Assembly (NCBI GenBank): GCA_937863095.1
Contig: CALMCP010000005.1
Coordinates: forward strand, 1-33,727
DNA: 33,727 nucleotides
From: an uncultured Candidatus Saccharibacteria bacterium
Lineage (GTDB): Bacteria > Patescibacteriota > Saccharimonadia > Saccharimonadales > Saccharimonadaceae
Direction of reading: 5' to 3'
A model generated the notes under the pieces. That model was not told the origin of the DNA and did not search any database. It saw only the letters and a program-made list of their open reading frames with translations. Made by a program: the position numbers and the translations under genes. Shown piece by piece: positions 3,850-20,905 of this stretch (positions are counted from its first letter, which is position 1; each line of letters starts with the position of its first letter).

Positions 3850-3850
<1 letters not shown>

Positions 3851-4116
3851 TGACCGACGAGCATGGCAAACCAGCTATGGCAGTCAAGGTGTATGCACCG
3901 TTTCAGGTCTACTTTGAGGGCGATGCCTACTCGGTGAGTGCCGTGAACGACACTGGCCCGTTCGACATCTTGCCGCGTCACCGCAACTTTCTCTGCATGC
4001 TTGTACCTTGCCACCTCGCCATCCAACCCGTCACCGGCGACAAGAAAACCATCAAAATCCACCGCGCTCTCATGCATGTCAAAGCCGACAAAGTCGTAGT
4101 ATTCATGGATGTATAG
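3850..4116 (+). CDS. atpC: F1 ATP synthase subunit epsilon, N-terminal domain only
   Basis: Subunit of the central stalk that binds gamma and the c-ring. The 88-aa product contains the N-terminal beta-sandwich with the family motif GPFDILPRHRNFLCML (compare GPFDILPGHANF). It ends where the two C-terminal helices would begin; ordinary epsilon is about 130-140 aa. Epsilon without the helical hairpin is known in a few lineages, for example green sulfur bacteria. In other bacteria the hairpin inhibits ATP hydrolysis, so that brake should be missing here. The start is GTG, overlapping the last base of the atpD TAG. No frameshift remnant of a C-terminal domain follows, and no terminator is visible after the gene. 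Confidence 0.9.
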
Positions 4117-4232: not shown

Positions 4233-5300
4233 ATGCCAAGACTACCAGAACCAGGAGGCGACACCGGTCAATGGGGGCAAATCCTCAACGACTATCTCTC
4301 AGCAGTTCATAAGCCCGACGGCACGCTCAAAGAGAACTCTGTCACGGCTGATACTATTGCTCCGAATGCTATTACTGAAGACAATCTCTCGCAATCTATC
4401 AAGAATCAGCGTGAAACTATTGCGGGTCAACAAGGTTCTACTGGTGCAACAGGTCCGCAAGGGACTCCTGGTGCCACAGGCGCTACCGGATTGGCTGGTG
4501 CAAGTGGCACTCCTGGTCCGCAGGGCGCTACGGGTGCAAGTGGCCCGCAGGGTGCTCCAGGCGCTGATGGTCAAGACGGAGAAGTTGGTGCTACGGGCGC
4601 CCCAGGTTCGGCTGGTTTTCATGGTGCTACTGGCGCTACAGGCCCCGAGGGCCCTATGGGTGCAAGCGGAACCGCTGGACTAGACGGAGCAACCGGAGCC
4701 TCGGGGCCACAAGGATTTACTGGTGCCACGGGAGAATCCGGCCAAGTTGGTGCAACGGGCCCTACAGGCGCTACAGGTCCTGAGGGTTTGCAGGGTCAAG
4801 TTGGCGCAACGGGCAGCGCGGGAGAATCGGGTGAGGTTGGGGCGACTGGGCCGGCCGGGGGGCCTGGCGCTACGGGCGCACAAGGTGCTTCGGGTGTTCC
4901 GGGTGCGAACGGGGCTGATGGTCAAGACGGAGGCGTCGGAGCTACGGGTGCCCCAGGGCAGATTGGTGCCACAGGAGCACAAGGCCCAGACGGGCCAACT
5001 GGCCCAGCTGGAGAAGACGGTGCGCAGGGCGCCACAGGAGCAACTGGCGCACCGGGCGCGACAACGATTGCTGGTATTGACGGCTTACAGGGGGTGTTGG
5101 ATAATAAACTCGAGACTTCTCGGTTGGACACCGATGGCACACTTGCAGCAGAGAGCGACACTACTATTGCCAGCCAAAAAGCTGTCAAAACGTATGTCGA
5201 CGCCCAAGTAGTTGGGTCAAATGTCCATGTCTACCAAAACTATGCTGATGCTCCGCCGCTACCAGTCGATACGATTGTAATTTCTCGTACGGGGTCATAG
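4233..5300 (+). CDS. Collagen-like (Gly-X-Y) fibre protein, phage-tail-like
   Basis: A 355-aa protein in three parts. The head (residues 1-65) opens with [20 protein letters not shown]. The middle (about 67-275) is almost unbroken Gly-X-Y, dominated by GAT, GPQ, GAS and GAP triplets, and should form a collagen triple helix. The tail (about 276-355) contains '[11 protein letters not shown]', a motif common in phage tail-fibre proteins, and ends in [11 protein letters not shown]. There is no signal peptide or membrane segment. The next gene begins three bases after the stop, so the two form one unit. The block [16 protein letters not shown] occurs twice, evidence of internal repeat expansion. 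The composition suggests a trimeric shaft holding a receptor-binding tip. Whether this is a domesticated tail protein, a prophage scrap or a cellular adhesin cannot be told from this sequence alone. Confidence 0.85.
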
Positions 5301-5303
5301 CAT

Positions 5304-7673
5304 ATGGCAGTCGCACTGCGTGCTGCTGGTACGGGTACTCATGTTAGTTCGGGCACTACGCTGACGTTAAATCTTCCTGCTGGTACACAGGAGGGAGATT
5401 ACCTGATTGCCTTTATTCATAGCCAGGCTTCAACGGCAACGGTTGATTTTGCACCACCAGCTGGTTGGACAAAAATTGGACCGAGTTTCACGCCAAATAG
5501 TGCGACCAATCGTGTCACATCTATGTTTGCTAAGTTTGCTGGCAGCAGCGAGGCTTCTACGTATGTTTTTACTGCGCCCCTTACGGGCGATCGAATGCTT
5601 GGTGTTATTCATGCGTATACTGGCGTCAACACGATGACTCCAGTTGCGGCTTCGTCCGGCTTCTCGAACATCACAGTTAGCTCAAACACATTGAACGTAG
5701 CAGCGTTTCCTGCTTCCTCTTCTTGCTATACCATCCAGATGAGTACCAGTCAGTTTGCCTCGCCGTATTCGTACGCGTTAACTAGTTATACGGGTGGTCT
5801 CACACTCCAATCAGAGGTCTTTCGGGCTTCCGGAGCGACACAAAACCCTCCCTCCGAAGATATTTCAGTGTCGCGTAGTTGTATGCGAATTTGGAGCGGA
5901 ATGGCCGATGGTAGCGGGATTGGGGCGCATGCGATTGTAACGGCAGGGCAAGCAAGCCAGAGCACAGCAGCGCTGATTTGCCTCAATGAGGCAGCCGTTC
6001 CCACTGCCGACCTCCCAACACTTGCTGGCTGGACGACAGACTTTTCCCGAATCAATGAGACGCCTACGCCTACGGCAGGGGACACTGCACATGCAGCTAC
6101 GCTTACTGTGGATGCGCCCTATAATGGCCTGCCACCACAAGTGGGCGACTTCTATGTGCTTGTACATCAACTCAATAACGGTGCAGCATCAGTAAAATTG
6201 CCAGCAACACCCGCTGGTTGGACACAAATTCGAGAAGCTGGATCGCCTATTACGGCTGGGACGATGTCGACCGGAGCATGGTATAGGCAGTTGACGGCCG
6301 ATGATATTGCGAATGGCAGTGTCGAGGTGAGCCTTGCAATCAACAACGATACTGGCCGTACTAGTCGCCCGGCTTTTCTTGGGTTTTGGGTGCGTGGCGC
6401 CGTATCGCTTACGTATGGAACGCCGCAAGACCGTCAGCATCATGCACCACCTGATTCCTCGGCCGTATATCCGCTTGCATTGACGGTACCAAACACTGCT
6501 CCGAGCACTAAGGTACTCGGCGTGACGCTTGCTACTGAACGAACGGTTGCAGTAGAAACGGCTGAGCAGATGCAATACCTTGCGGCCGATGGCGTGAGTG
6601 TGCAGTCTCGTTGGACGAGCAGTATGTTCCAGAGCCTTTCTTTAGACAGTACTTTCTTAACCGTTAGTGCTGACTTGACTGACCAAAAGGGTGGCCAAAG
6701 TACACCATTCTGTATCAAATGGCCCAATACCCATAGCTACAACGCATGGGCCGTGCAGTTGGCATTTGAGAGTCCGACAAGTGTCACATCGGGTCTCACT
6801 ATTCGTCGTAGTGATGGTTCGGCCCTTGAGGCCGCCTATTTGAAGGTGTCAAATGGAGGTGGTGCACTGGTTACTCCTGGCGGTCTAAAAGTCGTCAAGC
6901 CTGGGTATGATTCGGTGACGAGTATGTTAGCAAGTAACCCCTTTTATATTGCGCACCGCGGCGGTAGCCGTGACTTTCCCGAGATGAGCGGCTATGCCTA
7001 TGGTCAATCAGTTCTGCGTGGGTATGGTGCCTTGGAAGTAAGCTTGGCGCGGACCAGTGATGGCGTATGGTTTGGACTACATGATGCTGACCTAAATCGA
7101 ACTAGTGGCACTACTGGTCTTGGGGCCGCGTCGGCGATGACTTGGGCGCAAGTGCAGACGTATCAAATCCTTGGCTCGATGGCGCCCAACAACCCCTCGC
7201 AGGCACATCGACCATATATGCGGCTAGAGGAGTTACTGGCGCTGTACTATCCAAGTCATGTTATGTTTTTGGACATCAAGTATGCCAGCGCTTACCAAGC
7301 AGAGTTCATCAGCAAGATAAATGCTCTTCCGGGAGCGCCACAAGATCATATCGTTGGCAAGGCGTTTGGAGTAGGTGCTGGGTTTACCAACGCCATGCAT
7401 GCCGCTGGATACAAAACCTGGGGGTATTTTTATGAAAGTGACTATACTGGGGGTACTCTAGCAAGCAACCAGGCTAATTGGGATATTCTTGGCATGGATT
7501 ACGGTGCTTCGACTGCCGCATGGACGGCTGTCACTGGCTACGGCAAGCCCGTCATCGGCCATATCTGTCCGACTGTCAGTGCTAAGAACACAGCTATCAG
7601 TCGTGGGGCTACCGGGTTGATGTGCTCGGGTGTCATTGCTATCGTGCCAAATACGCCGTATGACAACAATTAG
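5304..7673 (+). CDS. Tail-tip-like protein with C-terminal glycerophosphodiester phosphodiesterase domain
   Basis: A 789-aa protein. The N-terminal half holds two related beta-sandwich repeats, each with a 'GD(Y/F)xxxxxH' strand and an 'PAGWTxI' motif (about residues 20-60 and 270-310), a fold I associate with minor tail proteins of actinobacteriophages. The C-terminal part is a TIM-barrel GDPD domain: HRGG at 551-554, FPEMS shortly after, ALEVSLARTSDG around 577-588, and LHDADLNRTSG from 592. Ordinary GDPDs have PENT and an E-x-D metal pair; here these read PEMS and E-V-S, so metal binding may differ. The family hydrolyses glycerophosphodiesters and could act on lipoteichoic-acid-like or phospholipid headgroups of a target cell. 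No signal peptide is present. The gene is coupled to the collagen-like gene before it. Confidence 0.85.
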   Translation: MAVALRAAGTGTHVSSGTTLTLNLPAGTQEGDYLIAFIHSQASTATVDFAPPAGWTKIGPSFTPNSATNRVTSMFAKFAGSSEASTYVFTAPLTGDRMLGVIHAYTGVNTMTPVAASSGFSNITVSSNTLNVAAFPASSSCYTIQMSTSQFASPYSYALTSYTGGLTLQSEVFRASGATQNPPSEDISVSRSCMRIWSGMADGSGIGAHAIVTAGQASQSTAALICLNEAAVPTADLPTLAGWTTDFSRINETPTPTAGDTAHAATLTVDAPYNGLPPQVGDFYVLVHQLNNGAASVKLPATPAGWTQIREAGSPITAGTMSTGAWYRQLTADDIANGSVEVSLAINNDTGRTSRPAFLGFWVRGAVSLTYGTPQDRQHHAPPDSSAVYPLALTVPNTAPSTKVLGVTLATERTVAVETAEQMQYLAADGVSVQSRWTSSMFQSLSLDSTFLTVSADLTDQKGGQSTPFCIKWPNTHSYNAWAVQLAFESPTSVTSGLTIRRSDGSALEAAYLKVSNGGGALVTPGGLKVVKPGYDSVTSMLASNPFYIAHRGGSRDFPEMSGYAYGQSVLRGYGALEVSLARTSDGVWFGLHDADLNRTSGTTGLGAASAMTWAQVQTYQILGSMAPNNPSQAHRPYMRLEELLALYYPSHVMFLDIKYASAYQAEFISKINALPGAPQDHIVGKAFGVGAGFTNAMHAAGYKTWGYFYESDYTGGTLASNQANWDILGMDYGASTAAWTAVTGYGKPVIGHICPTVSAKNTAISRGATGLMCSGVIAIVPNTPYDNN

Positions 7674-7680
7674 TAAAAGA

Positions 7681-8706
7681 TTAGTACGTCACGAAATAAT
7701 CAAACCCGAACGCTGAGTTACCTGGAGCAGGAGCGGCGGTGCAAATGCTAAAGCCTGTTTGGTCGCGGTCGACATAGTACTGGGTACGACCGGCGGCGTT
7801 GCCGATGGGGCTGACGATAACATGGGGTTGTTTGGTAAATGCTTGGTTGAAGTTGATGCGCATGAAACAACCAGCCTGCGGGTTGTTGCCAGTGTTGATA
7901 CTGATGCTACCGGCGGTGTCTGAGCCACTGATTGATGCCGAGCCACCGCCACCAAGCGGCGCGGCATTGGTAGTGCGTCCCGGCGTCGGGCCGGTGAAAC
8001 TGATATGGTTGGGCACTTCGAGTGTTGCATTGCCGCTGAGCACCAGCCGTGATGTGGTGATTTGTGACGCGGTCATCGGGCCATTGAAGGTCGACGCACC
8101 ACTGACACTTAGGTCGCGGAGGGTCGTGTTGCCTTGGATGGCGGTGTTTGTCGCGACTTGTAGCGAGTTGATTTGTGCATCCCCGAGATTCGCCGAACCA
8201 GAGATGGTCAGAGTTGGTCCTTGTATACTACCGCCTGTCTGGAGATTGCCGGCGATGTTGAGATTGCCACGCATCAGCGTCTGGCCGTCGATGATAGCAT
8301 TGCCCTGGATGGTCAGTGTCTGTGACGCGCCGCCGACCGAGGCATCTTTGTTGGCGAGACCACGCAGGGCCTCTTCGGTCAGCTCTTGACTTGCAACAGT
8401 TGGCTCAACTGGCGGTTTCTGGCTGTTGAGATAAAAGACGATGGTTACGGCAATCGCTATAATCACCACGAAAATGAACATCAACAGATATACGTTGATT
8501 CGCTTAAAGAACAGCTTGAGTTTTGAAACTTTCTTTGGCTTGACGCCATCGGTCGCCTCCGGCTCAACTTTGGCAGCCGCCTGTTCTTCCTCGAGTTCAT
8601 CGGGCGTACGGCTCAGCGCGTCGGCTGGTGCGTCTTGAGTGTGCAGTCCGTCCTCGGCAGGAGCCGGCGCGTCCGTTTGTTCGCTTGATTTGTCGTCTTC
8701 GTTCAT
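7681..8706 (-). CDS. Membrane-anchored protein with repetitive beta region and tail-protein-like C-terminus
   Basis: A 341-aa type II membrane protein of unknown function. Residues 1-65 are acidic and Pro/Ala rich, a basic stretch precedes one transmembrane helix (about 70-93), and the rest is predicted outside. Residues about 125-225 are short degenerate repeats of the form 'NxxIxGxxTxxxLxVxG' (DGQTLMRGNLNIAGNLQTGG, then GNTTLRDLSVSG), suggesting a beta-helix. The C-terminus (CFMRINFNQAFTKQPHVIVS to FGFDYFVTY) resembles the terminal domains of phage structural proteins. The stop faces that of the GDPD gene seven bases away, so the two are convergent. No clear promoter or Shine-Dalgarno site precedes the ATG. 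It may be a cell-surface fibre; the function is inferred from shape only. Confidence 0.75.
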   Translation of the reverse strand: MNEDDKSSEQTDAPAPAEDGLHTQDAPADALSRTPDELEEEQAAAKVEPEATDGVKPKKVSKLKLFFKRINVYLLMFIFVVIIAIAVTIVFYLNSQKPPVEPTVASQELTEEALRGLANKDASVGGASQTLTIQGNAIIDGQTLMRGNLNIAGNLQTGGSIQGPTLTISGSANLGDAQINSLQVATNTAIQGNTTLRDLSVSGASTFNGPMTASQITTSRLVLSGNATLEVPNHISFTGPTPGRTTNAAPLGGGGSASISGSDTAGSISINTGNNPQAGCFMRINFNQAFTKQPHVIVSPIGNAAGRTQYYVDRDQTGFSICTAAPAPGNSAFGFDYFVTY

Positions 8707-8809: not shown

Positions 8810-9547
8810 ATGAATACGACAAAGTTTGGGGTAGGGGTGATGGTGTTTGCGGTGCTAGTGTTTGGGGCGCTGGCCAGTTCGTCGCAGGCCCAGGAGGACA
8901 CAACCGCGTCGCCAAACTATCAGGTGACTGAGCCGCAGTTTGGTGCTGGTTCAGAACTCGATACCTGCTCAAACGGCTACTGTGCTCATGCAACCATCGG
9001 CAACCTCGACGGCGGGGCAGACACGCCGAGCAGTGCTAGCTTTGGGCTCATCCCGCAGGATAGCGACCCGCTCCTCGAAGTGATAGTCGACCCCGGCGTG
9101 TCGTACCTCGGTGTGCTGAGCACGACGGAAACGGCCAAAAAGACCATGATTGTCCGTGTCCGTACCTATCTGACCGATGGCTACACGCTCCATATCTACG
9201 GTACACCACCAAAGTACGATAGCCATACACTTAGTGTACCAACGACACCAACTACATCGACTCCGGGTACCGAGCAGTTCGCGCTCAATGTCGTGCGCAA
9301 TACCGTGCCAGACTTTGGTGCTGACCCGGTGCAAGTACCATCAGACTCGCTGAGCTTCGGGGAGGTCGCCCCCGACTACCAAACAGCCAACCTGTTTAAA
9401 TACGTCAACGGTGACATGATAGCCAGCAGTGCCGTTGAGACCGGTCGAACGGACTACACCGTCTCGATGATAGTCAACATCTCCAACAAAACACCCGCTG
9501 GTCACTACAGTGGCGACTACTCGGCTATCGTTATCCCGCGCTTCTAA
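8810..9547 (+). CDS. Secreted beta-rich surface protein, paralogue A
   Basis: A 245-aa exported protein of unknown function. A signal peptide covers about residues 1-28 (FGVGVMVFAVLVFGALASSSQA, cleavage near AQ-ED). The C-terminal module is shared with the 11370 protein: PGTEQFALNVVRNTVP, then GADP, then a Y..AN.FKY.NGD segment, then VSMIVNISNKTPAGHY and a last strand ending in PRF. The N-terminal part is different and has a lone C-x5-C pair. The frame is open back to 8639, overlapping the divergent neighbour, but the ATG at 8810 gives a proper signal peptide and sits six bases after a -10. It is the smallest of the four paralogues and lies at the edge of the surface island. Confidence 0.75.
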   Translation: MNTTKFGVGVMVFAVLVFGALASSSQAQEDTTASPNYQVTEPQFGAGSELDTCSNGYCAHATIGNLDGGADTPSSASFGLIPQDSDPLLEVIVDPGVSYLGVLSTTETAKKTMIVRVRTYLTDGYTLHIYGTPPKYDSHTLSVPTTPTTSTPGTEQFALNVVRNTVPDFGADPVQVPSDSLSFGEVAPDYQTANLFKYVNGDMIASSAVETGRTDYTVSMIVNISNKTPAGHYSGDYSAIVIPRF

Positions 9548-9592
9548 AACGAGAATATGTGGAAAACTTTCTGTAAATTACATGAAAATGTC

Positions 9593-9622
9593 TTGATTCT
9601 AGCGTACTGCTTGTGCTATTAT
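9593..9622 (+). promoter_or_regulatory. Strong promoter of the 9693 surface gene
   Basis: TTGATT (9593-9598), 18-base spacer, TGC-TATTAT with the -10 at 9617-9622. The predicted start of transcription is near 9629, giving a leader of about 64 bases. Confidence 0.75.
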
Positions 9623-9633
9623 GCTGATTGAAG

Positions 9634-9681
9634 CCCTATTTTTAGGGAATTAAAGAAAATAAAAACGCTAAAAATAAGGAG
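9634..9681 (+). promoter_or_regulatory. 5' leader hairpin and Shine-Dalgarno site
   Basis: The hairpin CCCTA-TTTT-TAGGG (9634-9647) lies about five bases from the predicted 5' end of the mRNA and may protect it from decay. The strong Shine-Dalgarno AAGGAG (9676-9681) precedes the ATG at 9693. With the downstream terminator, this gene looks built for high, independent expression. Confidence 0.55.
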
Positions 9682-9692
9682 ATATACACACT

Positions 9693-11294
9693 ATGTATAC
9701 ACTCAAGTCAATTGTGCAACGAGGCACGTTGTTTGGAGCGACGGCGGCGCTGGTAGTCGCAGCGGTAGCTCCTGCGGCAGCTGTTTTCGCTGACGCATTA
9801 AATCCTCTGACAGAGCGCTCTCTGCTTCTGTCAAGCTCTGCGCCGGGATGGCAGGACACTGACGGTTCGAACTATTCAACCGCCAGCCCGAACCCTGGTC
9901 AAGGCTTTAACGGCACGCCATCGAGCTATGCTCCAGCTGGCTCCGGTCCAAACGGTAAGAAGTCTGGTGAGACATTTACCTTTAGGACGAGTAGTGCTGG
10001 TGCAATCGCTGGCTTCTCATTCCAGTACTGCACGACAGCAGCCGGTCTGTGTGTTGGTCCGGGTAATAACACGGGTGATGCCGACCCAGATAAGGACGGC
10101 GACACAGCCGATAGCACTCGTTTAGCTAACGAAACGCCAACGACCGGTGGTTGGGCGATTAAGAAGAGTGACCTTGATGTCACCGGTGCATTTACTGAGA
10201 CGACAGCACCACTGCCTGAGAACATGCCCGCGGGTACATTTGGTGTGTACATCGATGGCACGCTCTCAACAGGTTGGGAATTTGCCGCAGTGAACAAAGA
10301 GACTGCTGCTTCTACTAACCCAAAGACTGGCAAGAAAAACTACCTGACCTTAACGAACGATGGCGCGAGCCTACCAACTACCGCTGGTGGTACGCAAGTA
10401 AAAGTATTCTTTAAGGCTTCGGAGACACAGTTTATCACCAACCCAGGTGCGGGTGCCTTCTTCGTCAAGATTAACACATGGGACAGCGACGATGTGGCTG
10501 ACTTTGTACCGGGCAACGCTCACAATATCGACGGCGGTGTGACTGTGGCAAATGTCATGACTGACTCTATTCACATCACGACCAAGGTTCTGGAAACCAT
10601 GGCCTTCTCGGTCGGTACACAGAACCCAGATACACAGGTAAATGGTGGAAATCACGGTACCTGCGATGTATTGACGCAACTGAACGGCAACCGCCTCGAC
10701 CTAGGTAATCCAATGGCAGAGTACTCACTGGAAACGGGTAAGGCATGGGACGTTCACTCCTACTGGCGCCTGAGCTCTAACTCATCTGGTGGTGCATCGG
10801 TGTACTACTCTGGTGATACACTTTCAAACACTATGGGAGACCAAATTGCTGACATGCCAAATGAAGTAGCTAGCCTACCTGGCACAGAACAGTTTGGACT
10901 AGGATTTGTCGATGCCGGACTTGACACTATGGATTCAGTATTTGCAGGTCTTGTCACGAGCGAACCTACCAAATACTTTACCCCTCGAAGCTATCCATTT
11001 ATCACTTTGTCTACTCAGACCGGCGCACCATACAACGGATTGGCTGCTCAGCCAGCAAGTACTGGCTACGATGAGGCTACTGGTACAATCGACGACGGTG
11101 CTGGTCACGCGGGTACTGCTAAGTTCAAGTTCCTAAAAACTAGCTCAACTGTTCCGGAGATGATTGCTCAGCAAACCGAGTCTGTCATTAGCTGTGCAAC
11201 TGCTAAGATGCGCTATGTCGGTAACATCGCTGCGGATACCCCAGCTGGTGTCTATACGACAAAGATTAACTATCTTGCTGCTCCACAGTACTAG
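9693..11294 (+). CDS. Large secreted beta-rich surface protein, paralogue B
   Basis: A 533-aa exported protein of unknown function. The signal peptide ends near VFA-DA (about residue 33). Just after it comes ERSLLLSSSAPG, a motif shared with paralogues C and F ([ED]RS-x-x-[LI]). A calcium-loop-like acidic run (DADPDKDGDTAD) lies around residues 130-141. A middle segment (ITTKVLETMAFSVG) matches the LETLTFCVSG and IETQVPPMLIYC segments of F and C, and the C-terminus carries PGTEQFGLGFV and TPAGVYTTKINYLAAPQY. There is no membrane anchor. The gene has its own promoter and terminator, so it is monocistronic. I infer a major surface or S-layer-like component held by the DUF916-like partners nearby. 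No named family can be assigned with certainty. Confidence 0.8.
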   Translation: MYTLKSIVQRGTLFGATAALVVAAVAPAAAVFADALNPLTERSLLLSSSAPGWQDTDGSNYSTASPNPGQGFNGTPSSYAPAGSGPNGKKSGETFTFRTSSAGAIAGFSFQYCTTAAGLCVGPGNNTGDADPDKDGDTADSTRLANETPTTGGWAIKKSDLDVTGAFTETTAPLPENMPAGTFGVYIDGTLSTGWEFAAVNKETAASTNPKTGKKNYLTLTNDGASLPTTAGGTQVKVFFKASETQFITNPGAGAFFVKINTWDSDDVADFVPGNAHNIDGGVTVANVMTDSIHITTKVLETMAFSVGTQNPDTQVNGGNHGTCDVLTQLNGNRLDLGNPMAEYSLETGKAWDVHSYWRLSSNSSGGASVYYSGDTLSNTMGDQIADMPNEVASLPGTEQFGLGFVDAGLDTMDSVFAGLVTSEPTKYFTPRSYPFITLSTQTGAPYNGLAAQPASTGYDEATGTIDDGAGHAGTAKFKFLKTSSTVPEMIAQQTESVISCATAKMRYVGNIAADTPAGVYTTKINYLAAPQY

Positions 11295-11306
11295 AATAGT
11301 TGTCTT

Positions 11307-11337
11307 AAAAACCGACCCTTACGTAGGGTCGGTTTTT
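11307..11337 (+). terminator. Rho-independent terminator
   Basis: A perfect stem ACCGACCCT / AGGGTCGGT (11311-11319 with 11325-11333) and loop TACGT, flanked by four A and seven T. It ends the 9693 transcript 12 bases after the stop codon. Confidence 0.93.
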
Positions 11338-11356
11338 TTATCCGCTACTGACATAG

Positions 11357-11362
11357 TATAAT
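11357..11362 (+). promoter_or_regulatory. -10 TATAAT, predicted leaderless start
   Basis: A consensus TATAAT ends seven bases before the ATG at 11370, directly after the terminator of the previous gene. There is no Shine-Dalgarno site between them, so the mRNA should begin at or next to the start codon. Confidence 0.7.
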
Positions 11363-11369
11363 ACTTCTT

Positions 11370-12443
11370 ATGCAAGGCTACTTAAATCACTGGTTTATCC
11401 ATTTCATGCGCTGGCCACACATGTTGCTAGAGCTGTTGCTGGTCGGAGCGCTAGTGATACTGTTTATTGCTCCGTCTGCCGGAGCGGCTATGCGACTGCA
11501 AGAGCGCAGTTTGTACATTGCCAATGACGAGGCGGGGGAGCGGTCGATGTATCGCCTCGGGTTCCGTTTCATGAGTCCGACACCGGTTGGTTCATTTGAG
11601 CTGCTGTTTTGCAACGACCCCATCCCGTACCATCCGTGCGATATCCCACTGAACATGGACGTTTCGGGGGCAAACCTGACGGACCAGACAGGGGAGACTG
11701 GGTTCACTATCTCTCAGCGAAGTACTAATCGCTTGCTGTTTACGCGGACGGCCAGTTTGCCCGGACCCGAGCGCTCGACGTACACGTTTGACAACGTACT
11801 CAACCCAGTTGATACTGAGCGGGCATTTTCTGTGCGTATCAAAACATTTAGCTCGACCAATGGTTCTGGTGCGCAGGTTGACTTCGGTTCGGTGCGAGCG
11901 CAAGTTATCAAGGGTATACGGATTGAGACGCAGGTGCCACCGATGTTGATTTACTGTCTTGCGCAAGAAGTCGAGTACAATTGTACTGGCACAAATGAAA
12001 TCTACTATACTGACATGGGCACGCTAAGCCCAACGGACACGCTGACCGCGCAGTCGCAGATGGCGGTCGGGACGAATGCCAGTGGCGGGTTTGTTATCAC
12101 AGCGGTCGGTGCGCCGCTTAGTGCTGGCACGACGACTATCGCTTCGCTAGCGACACCGAGCCCGAGTGAGCCAGGCAAAAACCAGTTTGGTATCAACTTG
12201 GTGGCAAACTCTACCCCAGGTATCGGTCTCGACCCAGAAGGCGAGTGGGCAAATGCGACGACCACAGCCGACTATAGTCAGCCAAATAGGTACAAGTTTA
12301 AAGACGGTGATATCGTTGCGTTCTCGCCAAACGTCAGCCTGATGAAGAAGTTTACTGTTAGCTATATCGTCAATGCCAGCCCGGCACTCAAAGCCGGTGT
12401 GTATACAACAACCATAAACTTTATAGCCAGCGGCAGATTTTAG
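11370..12443 (+). CDS. Secreted beta-rich surface protein, paralogue C
   Basis: A 357-aa exported protein of unknown function. It has a long N-terminal region and a hydrophobic core (about residues 17-35, MLLELLLVGALVILFIAPS) ending at AGAA, followed by the family motif QERSLYIA. The next part has a Cys pair (LLFCNDPIPYHPC) corresponding to YFCNNSPLKGLAC in paralogue F. The central IETQVPPMLIYC and C-terminal NQFGINLVANSTPGIGLDP, Y..PNRYKFKDGD and AGVYTTTINFIASGRF follow. The ATG at 11370 is chosen because of the -10 seven bases upstream; ATG 11406 (345 aa) would give a more compact signal peptide. The gene leads into the 12495-14487 genes with no visible terminator, so they may be co-transcribed. 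Confidence 0.75.
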   Translation: MQGYLNHWFIHFMRWPHMLLELLLVGALVILFIAPSAGAAMRLQERSLYIANDEAGERSMYRLGFRFMSPTPVGSFELLFCNDPIPYHPCDIPLNMDVSGANLTDQTGETGFTISQRSTNRLLFTRTASLPGPERSTYTFDNVLNPVDTERAFSVRIKTFSSTNGSGAQVDFGSVRAQVIKGIRIETQVPPMLIYCLAQEVEYNCTGTNEIYYTDMGTLSPTDTLTAQSQMAVGTNASGGFVITAVGAPLSAGTTTIASLATPSPSEPGKNQFGINLVANSTPGIGLDPEGEWANATTTADYSQPNRYKFKDGDIVAFSPNVSLMKKFTVSYIVNASPALKAGVYTTTINFIASGRF

Positions 12444-12452
12444 TGATACAAT
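12444..12452 (+). promoter_or_regulatory. Extended -10 TGATACAAT
   Basis: TGA-TACAAT lies directly after the TAG stop of the previous gene. It would give a leader of about 35 bases with Shine-Dalgarno GGAGGA (12479-12484) before the ATG at 12495. The same nonamer recurs at 24718 and 28011, and on the minus strand at 30052-30044. Confidence 0.5.
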
Positions 12453-12494
12453 GTGTACTATATTACTTACGGTAACATGGAGGACCCACCGATA

Positions 12495-13547
12495 ATGAAT
12501 CGCTTAAAGAGCGCAGCACTGATTTTGCTTGCAGTCGTCGTGACGACGTCAATGGTACTTATCCCGAACTATCAGGTAGCAGCACAGGGGTCGGCGGCAC
12601 TGAGTATCGCGCCGCGAAAAGACTACACCATCGAGCCGGGCAAGACTATTACCGATACACTGTTGGTGCGTAACCAAGACAAAGAACGACCGCTAAATCT
12701 ATCGTTGAGGGTGGTTGACTTCACCTATAACGACGACAGTGGTGCGCCAAAGTTGATGTTGGACGAAGACGCAGCTCCAACGCAAGAGTCCTTACGGTCA
12801 TTCATCAGCATCCCAGAAGCAGTCACCATCGAGCCAGGTGGTAGCCAGTCAATCGAAATGACTGTTGCTATCCCAGAGGGACAGGGTGGCGGTAGCTACT
12901 ATAGCGCCATCGTTTACTCGTCGGGCAGTTCAGAGGGCGGTAATGTTGGCTTGAGCGCATCCGGTGTCTCTCTCGTCTTTGTTGAAGTTCCTGGAGAAGG
13001 TAGCCAGGTCCTAACTCTTAAGCAGCTAGGTGCGTATAAGGAAACATCGTCTCAGACTGGAGGTCAATATGCGCGTTTCCATAGCGATGCCCCAAAACGA
13101 GTTGCGTATACACTAAAAAATGAAGGTAATTTGACCGGTCGCCCATACGGTACTATCACCATCAAGTCACTTTTTGGCCAAGAAGTTGTCATTAACGACA
13201 TCAACCCCAGTAACTCACTCGCTCTGAACAATCAAGAACGAACGTTTAGTGCCTGTATCAAGCTCAAAAATCAAGAAACTGACTTTAACGGCAGTCGAGC
13301 TGAAGCGACCACTTGTACTGATGCTGGTCTTTGGCCCGGGTTTTATAGCGTAGATATGACGGCATACTATGGTCGTAATGGTAGCCCAACCAAAGACCTC
13401 GTCGGCCATAGCTGGTTTATCTACATGCCATGGTGGGCTATCGTCATCCTCGTACTAGTACTAGCATTCATCGGCTACCATATCTGGAAGATAGTCCGAC
13501 ACATCCGCTCAAAGAGTACGAAGACCAAGCTCAAAAAACGAAAATAA
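12495..13547 (+). CDS. DUF916-like membrane-anchored surface protein (WxL-interacting-protein-like) 1
   Basis: A 350-aa exported, membrane-anchored protein. Signal peptide residues 1-32 (LILLAVVVTTSMVLIPNY). The first beta-sandwich (about 35-155) has the DUF916 layout: an 'IEPGKTITDTLLVRNQD' strand, an LNLSLRVVDF strand, then 'IEPGGSQSIEMTVAIPE' and GGSYYSAIVY. A second beta domain (about 165-300) is followed by one transmembrane helix (WWAIVILVLVLAFIGYHIW) and a Lys/Arg-rich tail inside. In Firmicutes, DUF916/DUF3324 proteins have this order and bind both WxL proteins and peptidoglycan. GTG 12453 would be an upstream in-frame start, but ATG 12495 has Shine-Dalgarno GGAGGA ten bases before it and a proper signal peptide. 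The homology is judged by eye. Confidence 0.75.
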   Translation: MNRLKSAALILLAVVVTTSMVLIPNYQVAAQGSAALSIAPRKDYTIEPGKTITDTLLVRNQDKERPLNLSLRVVDFTYNDDSGAPKLMLDEDAAPTQESLRSFISIPEAVTIEPGGSQSIEMTVAIPEGQGGGSYYSAIVYSSGSSEGGNVGLSASGVSLVFVEVPGEGSQVLTLKQLGAYKETSSQTGGQYARFHSDAPKRVAYTLKNEGNLTGRPYGTITIKSLFGQEVVINDINPSNSLALNNQERTFSACIKLKNQETDFNGSRAEATTCTDAGLWPGFYSVDMTAYYGRNGSPTKDLVGHSWFIYMPWWAIVILVLVLAFIGYHIWKIVRHIRSKSTKTKLKKRK

Positions 13548-13572
13548 GACATAACGGGGGCGCGGACAACGC

Positions 13573-14487
13573 ATGAAACGGTTTCTACCACAGCTGCTCG
13601 CAGGACTATCGCTCGCGATAGTTAGCCTCCTTGTCGTGTCGTCAACCACCCGCGCTATCACGCCCCTCCCGACACCGGACCCAAAACCCGGCGGTTACGG
13701 TCTGGAGGCGACAAAAACCCAAGCGCCACCAACTATGGGCGCAACCATCACCACACCAGCCAATGGTGCGTCATTTTCAACCTCACCGATTACCGTAAAT
13801 GGTCTCTGTCCGCAAGGACTTCTGGTGCAAGTCTACAACAACGGCGTTATGGTCGGCTCAGTCATGTGCGAGAACGGCAGTTTTAGCGTTGAAGTGAGCT
13901 TATTTGCCGGGACAAATGAACTCAAGGCTATCGTCTACGATGACCTTGACCAGGCTGGGCCAGAGTCAAACGTCGCTACGGTGAGCTACACCGACACTAA
14001 CTTCACGCGGTTCGGCGAGCTTATCACGCTGACGAGTAGCTATGGACGTCGCTCAGCTGCCAACAATACGCAACTAGAGTGGCCGCTCCAGTTGTCTGGT
14101 GGTACGGGGCCCTATGCGTTTAGTATCGATTGGGGCGATGGGGGCGAGCTGCAGCTACTTAGTCAGTCGCTGTCTGGATTGGTCAATGTCGCCCACATCT
14201 ATAAAAAGGCCGGCATCTACCAAGTAAATGTCAAAGTGACCGACACCAATGGCGTCAGCGCGTTCTTGCAAGTTATCGCTGTGTCGAGCGGGGAGGCTGA
14301 CCAAACAGCCGCCACGGCGGAAGATGATGGCGCAGCAAAGCAGGGCAAACCAGTGGTCCTCTGGGCGCCAACCGTAGTGTTGCTGCTACTCCTGCTACCA
14401 ACCTATTGGCTCGGCCGCCGGTCGCAGATGGTGACGATTCGCCGCAAGATGCTAAAAGAACGGGACAAATACCAAGATAAGAAATGA
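13573..14487 (+). CDS. Exported Ig/PKD-like protein with C-terminal membrane anchor
   Basis: A 304-aa protein. The signal peptide covers about residues 1-28. A Pro-rich linker leads to an Ig-like domain (about 55-140: ITTPANGASFSTSPITVNGL with a Cys pair, then FAGTNELKAIVYDDLDQ). A PKD-like domain follows (about 150-238), with SGGTGPYAFSIDWGDG and the typical 'HIYKKAGIYQVNVKVTD' strand. One transmembrane helix (about 257-276) and a basic tail end the protein. PKD and Ig domains usually mediate extracellular protein or carbohydrate contacts. The gene starts 25 bases after the DUF916-like gene, in the same direction and with only a weak Shine-Dalgarno site, so it is probably read from the same transcript. 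The partner or ligand is unknown. Confidence 0.75.
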   Translation: MKRFLPQLLAGLSLAIVSLLVVSSTTRAITPLPTPDPKPGGYGLEATKTQAPPTMGATITTPANGASFSTSPITVNGLCPQGLLVQVYNNGVMVGSVMCENGSFSVEVSLFAGTNELKAIVYDDLDQAGPESNVATVSYTDTNFTRFGELITLTSSYGRRSAANNTQLEWPLQLSGGTGPYAFSIDWGDGGELQLLSQSLSGLVNVAHIYKKAGIYQVNVKVTDTNGVSAFLQVIAVSSGEADQTAATAEDDGAAKQGKPVVLWAPTVVLLLLLLPTYWLGRRSQMVTIRRKMLKERDKYQDKK

Positions 14488-14490
14488 AAC

Positions 14491-14520
14491 TTGAAAGCAT
14501 GAGCTTTGTCGTGCTACACT
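14491..14520 (+). promoter_or_regulatory. Promoter of the 14566-16755 pair
   Basis: TTGAAA (14491-14496), 18-base spacer, TGC-TACACT (-10 at 14515-14520). The predicted leader is about 39 bases and contains AGGGAGG (14553-14559), six bases before the GTG at 14566. Confidence 0.65.
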
Positions 14521-14565
14521 GTGAGAGTAAGGTGTGAAACGAATAAGTTTTTAGGGAGGAACAAC

Positions 14566-15735
14566 GTGAAACAGACAAAATTTTCAACGAGGCATGCAGG
14601 CTTTTTGGTAGCTGCCTTTGTCATGGTGGCATCGCTTGCGGCACCACTGACAACAGCGTTTGCCGCTACGGCGACTGACCGGTCAGTGACGCTATCGAGC
14701 ACGTCGATCAGTGCAACAGGCGTAAAATATGATGTAGAATTCACAACAGGACCAGCTGCAGCTGGCGCTATGGTCATCTACTTCTGTAACAACAGCCCGC
14801 TCAAGGGCTTGGCGTGCGATGCGCCAACGGGCTTCACTGCTGTCAACGCGACGGTCGCCTCGCCATTTACCAAAGTGAACTCAACAGCAAACCGTATCGA
14901 ACTGACGGGCACATTTGCCGCCAACACACCTGTCAAGGTAGAGTTGGGCAACATCCAGAACCCATCGGTTCCTTTTGAGACGGCACCGCTATTTGCACGT
15001 ATTGTCACCTATGCTGCGGGCGGGGATGCTACTGACACGACAGCAACAGCACTGGGTACCAACCAAGTCGATGACGGCTCCATGTCGATAGCCATCCACC
15101 AAAACATCAACGTTTCTGGCGTCGTCCTTGAAACGCTGACGTTTTGTGTGTCAGGCGGCGTGTCGGGTGACGAAGATACCAGCCCTATCGGTGACGGTTG
15201 TAGCGGCACACTGCCCGCTCCAACACTCAAGCTTGGCGATGAAACGACTGGCCTGGAGCCAGGTACGGTCAGTGAAGGGTATATCCACACGCAAATCTCA
15301 ACCAACGCTTCAAAGGGTGCTATCGTCCGCCTAAAGAGTGACGCAACCAACTGTGGCGGCTTGCTACGGGCTGGTGCGCCAAGCGCCTGTGACATCGCTC
15401 CAGCGCTACAAAGCGGTATCGCCAACGGTGAAGCAAAGTTCGGCGTAAAGACGGCCACTGCTACTGACGGCACCGGAGCGACTGGGCTCTATCAGCCATA
15501 CGGCACCTCTGCGGAGACACCAAACCCTTACTACAGCAACGGTGCGTATGCTATGCGCTATGTCGATGCCACAGATGGCGTGACCAGCCCATTTGGTGAC
15601 CGCTTCCTCGAGACAGCAGGAGGCCCAGCGAATAACAAGAACATGATGTTGACCTTTGGTGTTGGCACGTCAAACAGTACGCCAGCCGGCACCTATTCAG
15701 CCAACCTCAACCTCATCGCGGTGGGCACATTCTAA
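14566..15735 (+). CDS. Secreted beta-rich surface protein, paralogue F
   Basis: A 389-aa exported protein of unknown function. A signal peptide (about residues 1-33, FLVAAFVMVASLAAPLTTAFA) is followed by TDRSVTLSSTSIS, the shared [ED]RS motif. The first domain has YFCNNSPLKGLAC, corresponding to the Cys pair of paralogue C. Next come VLETLTFCVSG and a segment (TQISTNASKGAIVRLKSDA) resembling the region where WxL domains carry their first motif. The end is TPAGTYSANLNLIAVGTF. The frame is open to 14506, but GTG 14566 has a strong Shine-Dalgarno site and starts the signal peptide. It is paired with the second DUF916-like gene 27 bases downstream, repeating the order seen at 11370-13547. Confidence 0.78.
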   Translation: MKQTKFSTRHAGFLVAAFVMVASLAAPLTTAFAATATDRSVTLSSTSISATGVKYDVEFTTGPAAAGAMVIYFCNNSPLKGLACDAPTGFTAVNATVASPFTKVNSTANRIELTGTFAANTPVKVELGNIQNPSVPFETAPLFARIVTYAAGGDATDTTATALGTNQVDDGSMSIAIHQNINVSGVVLETLTFCVSGGVSGDEDTSPIGDGCSGTLPAPTLKLGDETTGLEPGTVSEGYIHTQISTNASKGAIVRLKSDATNCGGLLRAGAPSACDIAPALQSGIANGEAKFGVKTATATDGTGATGLYQPYGTSAETPNPYYSNGAYAMRYVDATDGVTSPFGDRFLETAGGPANNKNMMLTFGVGTSNSTPAGTYSANLNLIAVGTF

Positions 15736-15762
15736 CACATCGGCTAGTTTAAGGAGGCAGAT

Positions 15763-16755
15763 ATGCAGTTCAGACAGAAGATTCGAAATATAGCAGTCGC
15801 GTCGCTCGTGGCAATTGTCGGTGTATCGGCGGTACTGGTAGGGCAGAGCTATGCTCAACAAGCGGCCGAGCCCAGCACGGCAAACACCCTCAAGGTTTCA
15901 CCGCTCCGCACTGAGATAACCGCAGACCCGGGTGAGACCAAAGTGGTCAAAATCATCGTGACCAATCCATCGGACAGCGAAGTGTCGGTCAAGCCGATTC
16001 AGAACGACTTTGTTGCCGACAAGGACGAGGACGGTAGCCCAGCTATCATCCTCGACGAAAATGAATACGCCGAAAACAACAGCTTGAAGCGCTTCCTCGT
16101 ACCACTTGAGAGCTTCAATGTCGGTCCGGGCGAGTCTGTCACAGTCGAAGCCACCATCAACGTGCCGGCTGACGCTGAAGCGGGTGGCTATTTCGGTGCG
16201 GTTCGCTTTGCGCCAACCTCTCCCGACGGTGGTGGACAAGTTAACACCAGCCCAAGTGTCGCCTCGCTCATCCTTTTGCGCGTCAATGGTGATGTGCCGG
16301 AGAAACTTGAACTGACAGACTTTCAAGTCCAGCAAGCCGCTAAGGCAACCAATTTCTTGACAACCGACAAAGACATCTCCGTCCTCGTCCGTTTCAAGAA
16401 CGACAGTAAAGTCCAGCTCGCACCGTTTGGCATGGTGTCCGTTCAGCGAGGCAACGACGTCGTCTATGCTGCTAGCTTCAACTCCGAAGAGCAAAAAGAC
16501 AACATCTTGCCAGCAAGCGCTCGTCGCTGGAACATCCCGCTCAAGGACATCGAAGGCTTTGGCCGCTACAACGTTACAGCAACCTTTACCTATGGCGCGA
16601 GCAACAAAACCATCGAAGTATCACAAGTCTTCTGGGTTGTGCCTTTGCCGATGATTATCGGTGCGGTCGTAGCTCTGCTGCTCATCATCGGCGTCATTGT
16701 CCTGATTGTCCTCCGCGCCCGTCGCAAAAAGAGTGGCATGTCACTGGGTAAATAA
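15763..16755 (+). CDS. DUF916-like membrane-anchored surface protein (WxL-interacting-protein-like) 2
   Basis: A 330-aa exported, membrane-anchored protein. Signal peptide residues about 1-31 (AVLVGQSYAQ). The first beta-sandwich (about 40-165) begins LKVSPLRTEITADPGETKVV and includes VGPGESVTVEATINVPADAE then GGYFGAVRFAP, the DUF916 pattern also seen in the 12495 protein. A second beta domain (about 175-290) precedes a transmembrane helix (MIIGAVVALLLIIGVIVLIV) and the basic tail RARRKK. Shine-Dalgarno AAGGAGG lies seven bases before the ATG. I infer that it holds paralogue F, encoded just before it, on the cell surface. A terminator follows 15 bases after the stop. Confidence 0.77.
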   Translation: MQFRQKIRNIAVASLVAIVGVSAVLVGQSYAQQAAEPSTANTLKVSPLRTEITADPGETKVVKIIVTNPSDSEVSVKPIQNDFVADKDEDGSPAIILDENEYAENNSLKRFLVPLESFNVGPGESVTVEATINVPADAEAGGYFGAVRFAPTSPDGGGQVNTSPSVASLILLRVNGDVPEKLELTDFQVQQAAKATNFLTTDKDISVLVRFKNDSKVQLAPFGMVSVQRGNDVVYAASFNSEEQKDNILPASARRWNIPLKDIEGFGRYNVTATFTYGASNKTIEVSQVFWVVPLPMIIGAVVALLLIIGVIVLIVLRARRKKSGMSLGK

Positions 16756-20159: not shown

Positions 20160-20852
20160 TTATTTGACGTCTTTAAGCGCGTCGTCGATGAGTGTTTTGA
20201 GCGCTTCAGTTGAACCTGCCTTGTCACCATCAACTTTCTTGCCGTTGAGAAAGAGGGTTGGCGTACCGGTGACGCCGGCAGCCTTACCCAGTGCTTGGTC
20301 AAACCTAATTTTTTGGCTCACGGCATCGCTGGCTTGGTCGGTGCGGAATTGTTCCAACTTCACTCCGAGCGCGCTGGCGTAACGCTCAAAGAATTCATTG
20401 CGCTCTGACGGGCTAGCAGCGCTCCACTCGGCTTGGTTGCCGAACAGTGCGTCCCACATCTCCCAGAACTTTCCCTGTTTGCCAGCAGCTTCGGCGCTGG
20501 CTGCGGCAGCGTTGGCATTTGGGTGGATTTGCGGGATGGGGAAGTTGCGGTAGATGAAGGCAATCTGCTCTTTGTACGTTTCGTCCTGCATGATAGGCGA
20601 AAAGTTTTCGTGGAACAGGCGGCAGCCGGGGTTGCACTGATAGTCGCCGTACTCAACTAACAGAACTTTTGCGTCCTTGTTGCCGAACACATGGTCACCG
20701 ATGTTACCGTTGCGTTCCTCAGCTCCGAGAATCTTCCCTGAACCGTTCTCGATATCGCTAACATCAACGGTGTTTTTTGGCGATATATATATCAACCCAC
20801 CGATAATCGCCACAACGATTACCCCAAAAATAATCCATGATTTTCCGTTCAT
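20160..20852 (-). CDS. DsbA-like membrane-anchored thiol oxidoreductase
   Basis: A 230-aa protein with one N-terminal membrane anchor (about residues 6-23) and an extracellular thioredoxin fold of the DsbA/DSBA-like type. After VLLVEYGDYQ comes the active site CNPGC (C73, C77). The usual motif is C-x-x-C (in this group often CPGC), so there is one extra residue between the cysteines. The cis-Pro loop reads GVTGTPTLFLNGK, as expected. The role is oxidation or isomerisation of disulfides in exported proteins, and several surface proteins nearby have paired cysteines. ATG 20852 is preferred over the longer frame because AGGAGG lies four bases before it and it gives the right signal anchor. Confidence 0.88.
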   Translation of the reverse strand: MNGKSWIIFGVIVVAIIGGLIYISPKNTVDVSDIENGSGKILGAEERNGNIGDHVFGNKDAKVLLVEYGDYQCNPGCRLFHENFSPIMQDETYKEQIAFIYRNFPIPQIHPNANAAAASAEAAGKQGKFWEMWDALFGNQAEWSAASPSERNEFFERYASALGVKLEQFRTDQASDAVSQKIRFDQALGKAAGVTGTPTLFLNGKKVDGDKAGSTEALKTLIDDALKDVK

Positions 20853-20874
20853 ATTTCCTCCTATTACTCTAGCT

Positions 20875-20880
20875 ATTGTA
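20875..20880 (-). promoter_or_regulatory. -10 TACAAT of the DsbA-like gene (minus)
   Basis: TACAAT on the minus strand, giving a short leader that contains AGGAGG. It is only 13 bases from the opposing -10 of the CBS-domain gene. Confidence 0.55.
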
Positions 20881-20893
20881 CCACGACGTGCGC

Positions 20894-20899
20894 TACAAT
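20894..20899 (+). promoter_or_regulatory. -10 TACAAT, predicted leaderless start
   Basis: TACAAT ends six bases before ATG 20906, with no Shine-Dalgarno site. This decides the start against the longer frame opening at 20876. Confidence 0.6.
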
Positions 20900-20905
20900 A
20901 CATAC

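Follow-up and report, generated by a model that had tools for sequence, protein, structure and literature searches.

Surface-protein genes of a Saccharibacterium combine Pam pilin-type subunits with relatives of WxLIP membrane proteins

A stretch of 33,727 nucleotides from an uncultured Candidatus Saccharibacteria bacterium (contig CALMCP010000005.1 of assembly GCA_937863095.1), the whole of which is called the window here, carries a locus whose members belong to the Pam families of NCBIfam and whose gene order is kept among relatives. Four of its secreted proteins (A, B, C and F) contain the Pam pilin domain and close with a common C-terminal signature, two others (D and G) are by profile homologous to WxLIPs, and the pairing of a pilin-domain gene with a WxLIP-like gene recurs in distant members of the candidate phyla radiation (CPR). 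We read it, with somewhat better than even confidence, as a Pam-type surface-fibre locus served by WxLIP-type donor-strand chaperones or anchors. The PamT, PamR and Pam pilin names were already known, whereas what is new here is the link to WxLIPs, the aromatic ending of the C-terminal signature, and the pairing seen with giant proteins. Seven of the genes had been picked out in an earlier, sequence-only reading as a WxL-like surface display island; all seven open reading frames (ORFs) are indeed present on the plus strand, with intergenic gaps of 25–145 bp, and an eighth gene, H, which that reading missed, is part of the system.

8810..9547, + strand: A, PamT, 245 aa, mostly Pam pilin C-terminal domain (NF058579, NF058581, hhalign to C)
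9693..11294, + strand: B, pilin of 533 aa, the variable large subunit (NF058581 in two stretches)
11370..12443, + strand: C, pilin of 357 aa, the conserved subunit (NF058581, AlphaFold2 model, invariant cysteines)
12495..13547, + strand: D, WxLIP-type (DUF916/DUF3324-like) protein with two immunoglobulin-like (Ig) domains, putative partner of C (PF06030, hhalign)
13573..14487, + strand: E, PamR (NF058578, PKD_4)
14566..15735, + strand: F, second variable pilin, 389 aa, with a diverged C-terminal Pam domain (NF058581 below cut-off)
15763..16755, + strand: G, second WxLIP-type protein, putative partner of F (AlphaFold2 model, Foldseek)
7681..8706, − strand: H, bactofilin-like type-II membrane protein (PF04519, co-occurrence with PamT)

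Release 20.0 of NCBIfam (June 2026) contains models of PamT, PamR and the Pam pilin domain, so that the earlier statement that no such system was described in CPR bacteria is outdated. Protein A scores 274.9 bits against the PamT model NF058579 (cut-off 240), and E 380.9 bits against the 'RbmA-like' PamR model NF058578 (cut-off 300). The model of the Pam pilin C domain, NF058581, with a cut-off of 55, finds A (151 bits, E 1.9e-44), C (155.1 bits, E 1.4e-45) and B (66.3 bits, E 3e-18, in a match split by an insert) and, below the cut-off, F (32.9 bits, E 6e-8), while hhalign places the PamT (A) profile on the last 157 columns of C (E 1e-35). These matches, beyond chance, bear out the proposal that the four secreted proteins are paralogues, and they are the only Pam pilin matches in the 0.9-Mb source genome (91% complete); a Pfam search with the four gave no match. 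NCBIfam thus covers A, B, C and E above its curated cut-offs, in a distribution confined to CPR in this sampling, and leaves D, G and H without a name. PamR itself, which is the Ig/PKD protein already recognised from the sequence (PKD_4, 5e-7), has a signal peptide, Ig/PKD (RbmA-like) domains and a C-terminal transmembrane helix.

On profile evidence D and G are diverged WxLIPs (DUF916/DUF3324), a homology carried by the sequence profile and not by fold alone. The two proteins are 28% identical (63 bits), and PF06030 (WxLIP_PGBD) matches both below its cut-off of 27.3 bits, at 18.0 bits for D (E 0.003) and 19.4 bits for G, but finds 39 of 49 members of their common family, termed DG here, at E<=0.01 (best 2.4e-11). 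A DG profile of 77 sequences aligned with three annotated Enterococcus DUF916/DUF3324 proteins at an hhalign probability of 98.2 (E 5.7e-14), over 249 columns that include the transmembrane helix and the second beta domain. The PF11797 (DUF3324) profile had no match in the DG family, the second beta domain and transmembrane helix being predicted by AlphaFold2 (AF2). Protein D comprises a signal peptide, two Ig domains and a C-terminal transmembrane helix, and the AF2 model of G (pLDDT, the predicted local confidence, 90.6) shows two beta domains and a transmembrane helix at residues 295–328. A Foldseek search of the PDB with this model ranked Enterococcus faecium WxLIP structures (9i1y, 9i25) first to third (E 5e-12 to 9e-11), followed by, among others, the chaperones CfaA, DraB, CsuC, FimC and Caf1M (E 5e-9 to 1e-6). 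Profile, domain layout and fold therefore agree with the DUF916-type anchors of the sequence-only reading. A search of PDB sequences with the DG profile gave no convincing relative, and tblastn of the DG consensus against plasmids gave nothing. The suggested duplication within the locus did not survive, since D-type and G-type sequences fall into separate, fully supported clades, common to 13 clusters, when 78 DG proteins are placed in a tree; they are an old pair, which rules out a recent local duplication. Their nearest relatives are found in a metagenome-assembled genome (MAG) of 'Candidatus Nanosynbacter sp.' (L084).

One segment of the first Ig domain of G stands out as a candidate for contact with the subunits:

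16216..16278, + strand: flexible loop and next strand of G, residues 152–172, candidate donor strand (AF2 confidence, column hydrophobicity)

The loop, residues 152–165, has the lowest AF2 confidence of the ectodomain (pLDDT 71/84), and the strand alternates in hydrophobic residues (V160-x-L/T162-x-A/P164-x-V166), column hydrophobicity over residues 160–166 being 1.00/0.32/0.99/0.23/0.95/0.00/0.99 in 77 relatives. Both are located where the long hairpin loop in the AF2 model of a WxLIP turns into a strand added to WxL (PMC10599100). We infer that D and G donate a strand in this way, and consider this slightly the better bet. Chaperones of the chaperone-usher pathway donate an equivalent strand, and the five named above resemble the predicted G at the level of fold only, sharing with it the alternating hydrophobic strand that follows a flexible loop. 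D and G differ from them in being membrane-anchored, in working without an usher or outer membrane, and in having their sequence similarity with WxLIPs and not with these chaperones. No usher gene was seen in the window, a genome-wide search with usher profiles not having been made.

The subunits, in turn, are marked by their C-termini. Each of A, B, C and F has an aromatic last residue placed 14 residues after the G of the AGxY motif, a feature overlooked in the sequence-only reading:

9500..9544, + strand: C-terminal signature of PamT (G-x-Y ... F, last 15 residues; alignment of 235 relatives)
11247..11291, + strand: C-terminal signature of B, GVYTTKINYLAAPQY (motif check, alignment of relatives)
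12396..12440, + strand: C-terminal signature of C, GVYTTTINFIASGRF (motif check, alignment of relatives)
15688..15732, + strand: C-terminal signature of F, GTYSANLNLIAVGTF (motif check, alignment of relatives)

The last residue is F or Y in 235/235 collected PamT and pilin proteins, of which 232 have G at −15 and 229 have Y at −13; just 20 of the 832 other genes of the same loci end in this manner. Because the mean column identity of the PamT/pilin families is only ~35%, the fixed C-terminal end must be under strong constraint. Subunits of chaperone-usher pili likewise combine a glycine with a terminal aromatic residue in their last strand, in a manner comparable to the Pam subunits. The motifs by which the set was originally recognised held up in part. 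The strict [ED]RSxxL, claimed for three paralogues, occurs in the N-terminal strand of B (ERSLLL) and F (DRSVTL) only, C having ERSLYI; LETxxFxV is confined to B and F; PG.[EN]QF is present in A, B and C and replaced in F by AKFG; and AGxYxxx[IL]xx[IL] is shared by B, C and F, while A has AGHYSGDYSAI as a variant of it. In its AF2 model (pLDDT 90.7) C folds into two beta domains (about 40–180 and 193–357) joined by a flexible linker, and four cysteines are invariant across its relatives; a profile search of PDB sequences with pilin C found no convincing relative. A secreted DsbA-like thioredoxin is encoded near the locus (window 20160–20903) and may oxidise these cysteines.

With WxLIP relatives in the locus, its subunits could instead be extremely diverged WxL domains that bind peptidoglycan as a flat coat, held by the WxLIPs and non-polymerising, a reading we regard as unlikely. 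As in the WxL loci of Lactobacillales and Bacillales (PMC10599100), the locus pairs a WxLIP homologue, built of two Ig-like domains and a transmembrane helix, with displayed proteins of small and large size that have their C-terminal domain in common, and a weak look-alike exists between the ends of the displayed proteins (YTTTLTWVL in WxL, YTTTINFIA in pilin C). The earlier proposal of a WxL-type locus is thus right as to layout, but not as to the identity of the displayed proteins, for the neighbours of D and G are Pam pilins and not WxL proteins. PF13731 (WxL) has no match in the source genome at E<=10, a Lactococcus control being found, and Pfam WxL profiles none in A, B, C or F at E<=1. 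In hhalign comparisons with five annotated WxL proteins, for which the annotated Enterococcus sequences come from L163–L166, pilin C (71 sequences) reached a probability of 0.5% and PamT (39 sequences) 1.2%. Membership of A, B, C and F in the WxL family was rejected on the PF13731 and hhalign results, although a very distant structural relationship to WxL may exist. A hand-written WxL consensus, used as a seed to locate annotated WxL loci in plasmids, matched no PDB sequence. The Pam subunits moreover contain no pair of W-x-L motifs, and WxL tails, unlike the F/Y ending of the Pam proteins, have no fixed place at the C-terminus; the Pam locus also differs in lacking an LPXTG partner and in having usually one anchor per subunit set.

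That D and G serve the pilins, rather than being mere membrane anchors, or coat proteins independent of the pilins, while the pilins self-assemble into a fibre or an S-layer-like sheet, is argued by the recurrence of the pair. Counts refer to 55 PamT loci whose flanking sequence was long enough (two overlapping cluster sets were available, and statistics were taken from one), and most of the genomes compared are MAGs. A DG-family gene follows the pilin-domain genes in 54 of the 55 loci and also in distant CPR, which points to a specific partner and makes self-assembly improbable, more so than a WxL-like coat. In favour of self-assembly, DG-family proteins occur in 145 of the 195 genomes of the class, many of them without PamT, and the family must therefore have other clients too. 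Proteins of 236–4,556 aa carry the Pam pilin domain precisely at the C-terminus. Outside the class, 11 giant secreted proteins (958–4,556 aa; L171–L181), picked by ORF length and not by their neighbours, carry it at their C-termini; in ten of them only one or two codons separate the match from the ORF end, and eight are directly followed by a DG-family gene, often with another pilin and DG pair next.

In the mechanism we propose, A, B, C and F would be exported by the Sec route, each with the shared C-terminal assembly domain ending in its free aromatic residue. The membrane-tethered D would capture this domain of A–C, and G that of F, outside the membrane, donating to it a beta strand from the first Ig domain. 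Thereafter D and G might act as chaperones, as anchors or as both, the domain being either handed over as the fibre grows or kept as an anchor; this mode would resemble that of chaperone-usher chaperones and of the predicted WxLIP–WxL complex, but be usher-free. PamT would form the terminal subunit of such a fibre; its exposed shaft or tip would consist of the variable pilins, and PamR and H would be accessory or contact proteins fixed in the membrane. Polymerisation of the Pam subunits into a fibre we consider somewhat more likely than not, and use in host contact plausible but rather less likely than not. As a still more tentative extension, proteins of the WxLIP type may serve monoderm bacteria in general as membrane-anchored donor-strand chaperones or anchors that need no usher. 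Firmicute WxL loci would then employ one kind of client domain and CPR the Pam C-terminal domain, which would tag clients from pilins of 236 aa to giant surface proteins of 4,500 aa for display by a cognate partner that recognises the terminal aromatic residue.

Several observations weigh against this picture. Both beta domains of the C monomer model are complete (pLDDT >90), with no obvious missing strand, and Foldseek relates C to generic beta-sandwich adhesins (TM-score about 0.2) and not to chaperone-usher pilins. TM-scores between G and the WxLIPs are only 0.37–0.47, probably due to a differing angle between the domains. A search of the accessible literature found no paper describing Pam, 'pilus' being NCBIfam's word only, and both the fibre and the complex of D or G with a pilin are inferred here from genes and two monomer models, those of C and G.

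Two further assembly routes were weighed against the fibre with WxLIP-type chaperones. A sortase-assembled Gram-positive pilus, or sortase-anchored proteins, might be suspected from three sortase-family genes elsewhere in the genome; none lies in the locus, however, and the subunits all end in a free aromatic residue without a transmembrane segment or basic tail. With no LPXTG-type signal found by a regular-expression search of the C-termini of the Pam proteins, this route was rejected, and we give it hardly any credence. Nearly as improbable is an accessory role of the locus in the type IV pilus or in a type IV secretion system. Type IV pili drive host attachment in Saccharibacteria (PMC12206443), and the Pam locus offers likewise a candidate host-contact appendage in the same clade, but proteins and assembly route are unrelated. 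The Pam proteins have ordinary signal peptides without a type IV pilin N-terminus, no type IV pilus or type IV secretion genes were seen in the window, and the locus lies downstream of ATP synthase genes in most relatives.

Known work on how episymbiotic CPR attach covers type IV pili, and the Pam locus suggests a route by which such cells may bring adhesive proteins to their surface. A compact operon with a recognisable chaperone or anchor, a C-terminal tag that can be read from sequence and a constant place behind the ATP synthase genes is amenable to deletion or reconstitution, and the last 15 residues let giant surface proteins of other CPR be assigned to this display route. Should D and G act like chaperone-usher chaperones, WxLIPs and those chaperones would represent one donor-strand principle, in monoderms and diderms respectively.

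The synteny anticipated for other Saccharibacteria was found, the operon being kept in the 55 PamT loci with PamR in 52 and a divergent H upstream in 52. The usual order is atpD, atpC, H (reverse), PamT, one to several variable pilins, pilin C, DG and PamR; clusters of the same type as the one in the window have F and G in addition, after PamR. Full-length H occurs in 52 of 56 PamT genomes and in 6 of 139 others (Fisher p 1.5e-35), all six of the latter having weaker Pam matches; this co-occurrence and the divergent neighbouring position indicate that H belongs to the Pam system. PF04519 (bactofilin) matches H at E 2.5e-4, and its predicted topology is that of a cytoplasmic N-terminus followed by a transmembrane helix, a bactofilin-like beta-helix and a conserved C-terminal domain. 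The same C-terminal domain also closes proteins of 1,400–3,200 aa in other Saccharibacteria (for example G077:C1:606546-607013 and G088:C5:8813-9328), and is perhaps a trimerising or receptor-binding tip.

PamT exceeds its cut-off in 51 of the 195 genomes of the class. The Pam pilin domain occurs in 103 of the 380 genomes compared across the phylum, and none of the 14 controls has it. Most relatives recovered with PamT are MAGs of Saccharibacteria/Saccharimonadia; the remainder are Patescibacteria bins or others. The distribution is patchy. Two near-complete genomes of the same genus as the window (G050 and G052) lack PamT, the DG family and H, so that the whole system has been gained or lost within a genus. 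At L126:10733-18189 five variable pilins stand in tandem before pilin C, which suggests expansion and diversification of the exposed subunit. Downstream of PamR, one branch (L061–L065, L149, L150, L152, L154) carries a gene of 1,061–1,369 aa, and elsewhere in the family the tRNA thiolase gene mnmA is found.

A promoter and terminator scan of the locus gave results close to chance, and PHROGs matched none of A–G, and H at chance level only, so that a phage origin of the locus is not indicated. Between atpC (about 3850–4116) and H, at window positions 4233–7673, lie two genes, one for a collagen-like protein that matches tail-fibre families (phrog_6320, 2e-44), the other for a protein with a GDPD domain that matches phrog_17803 ('phosphodiesterase', 3e-82); because H in relatives usually follows atpC directly, these two genes look like a phage-tail-like insertion.

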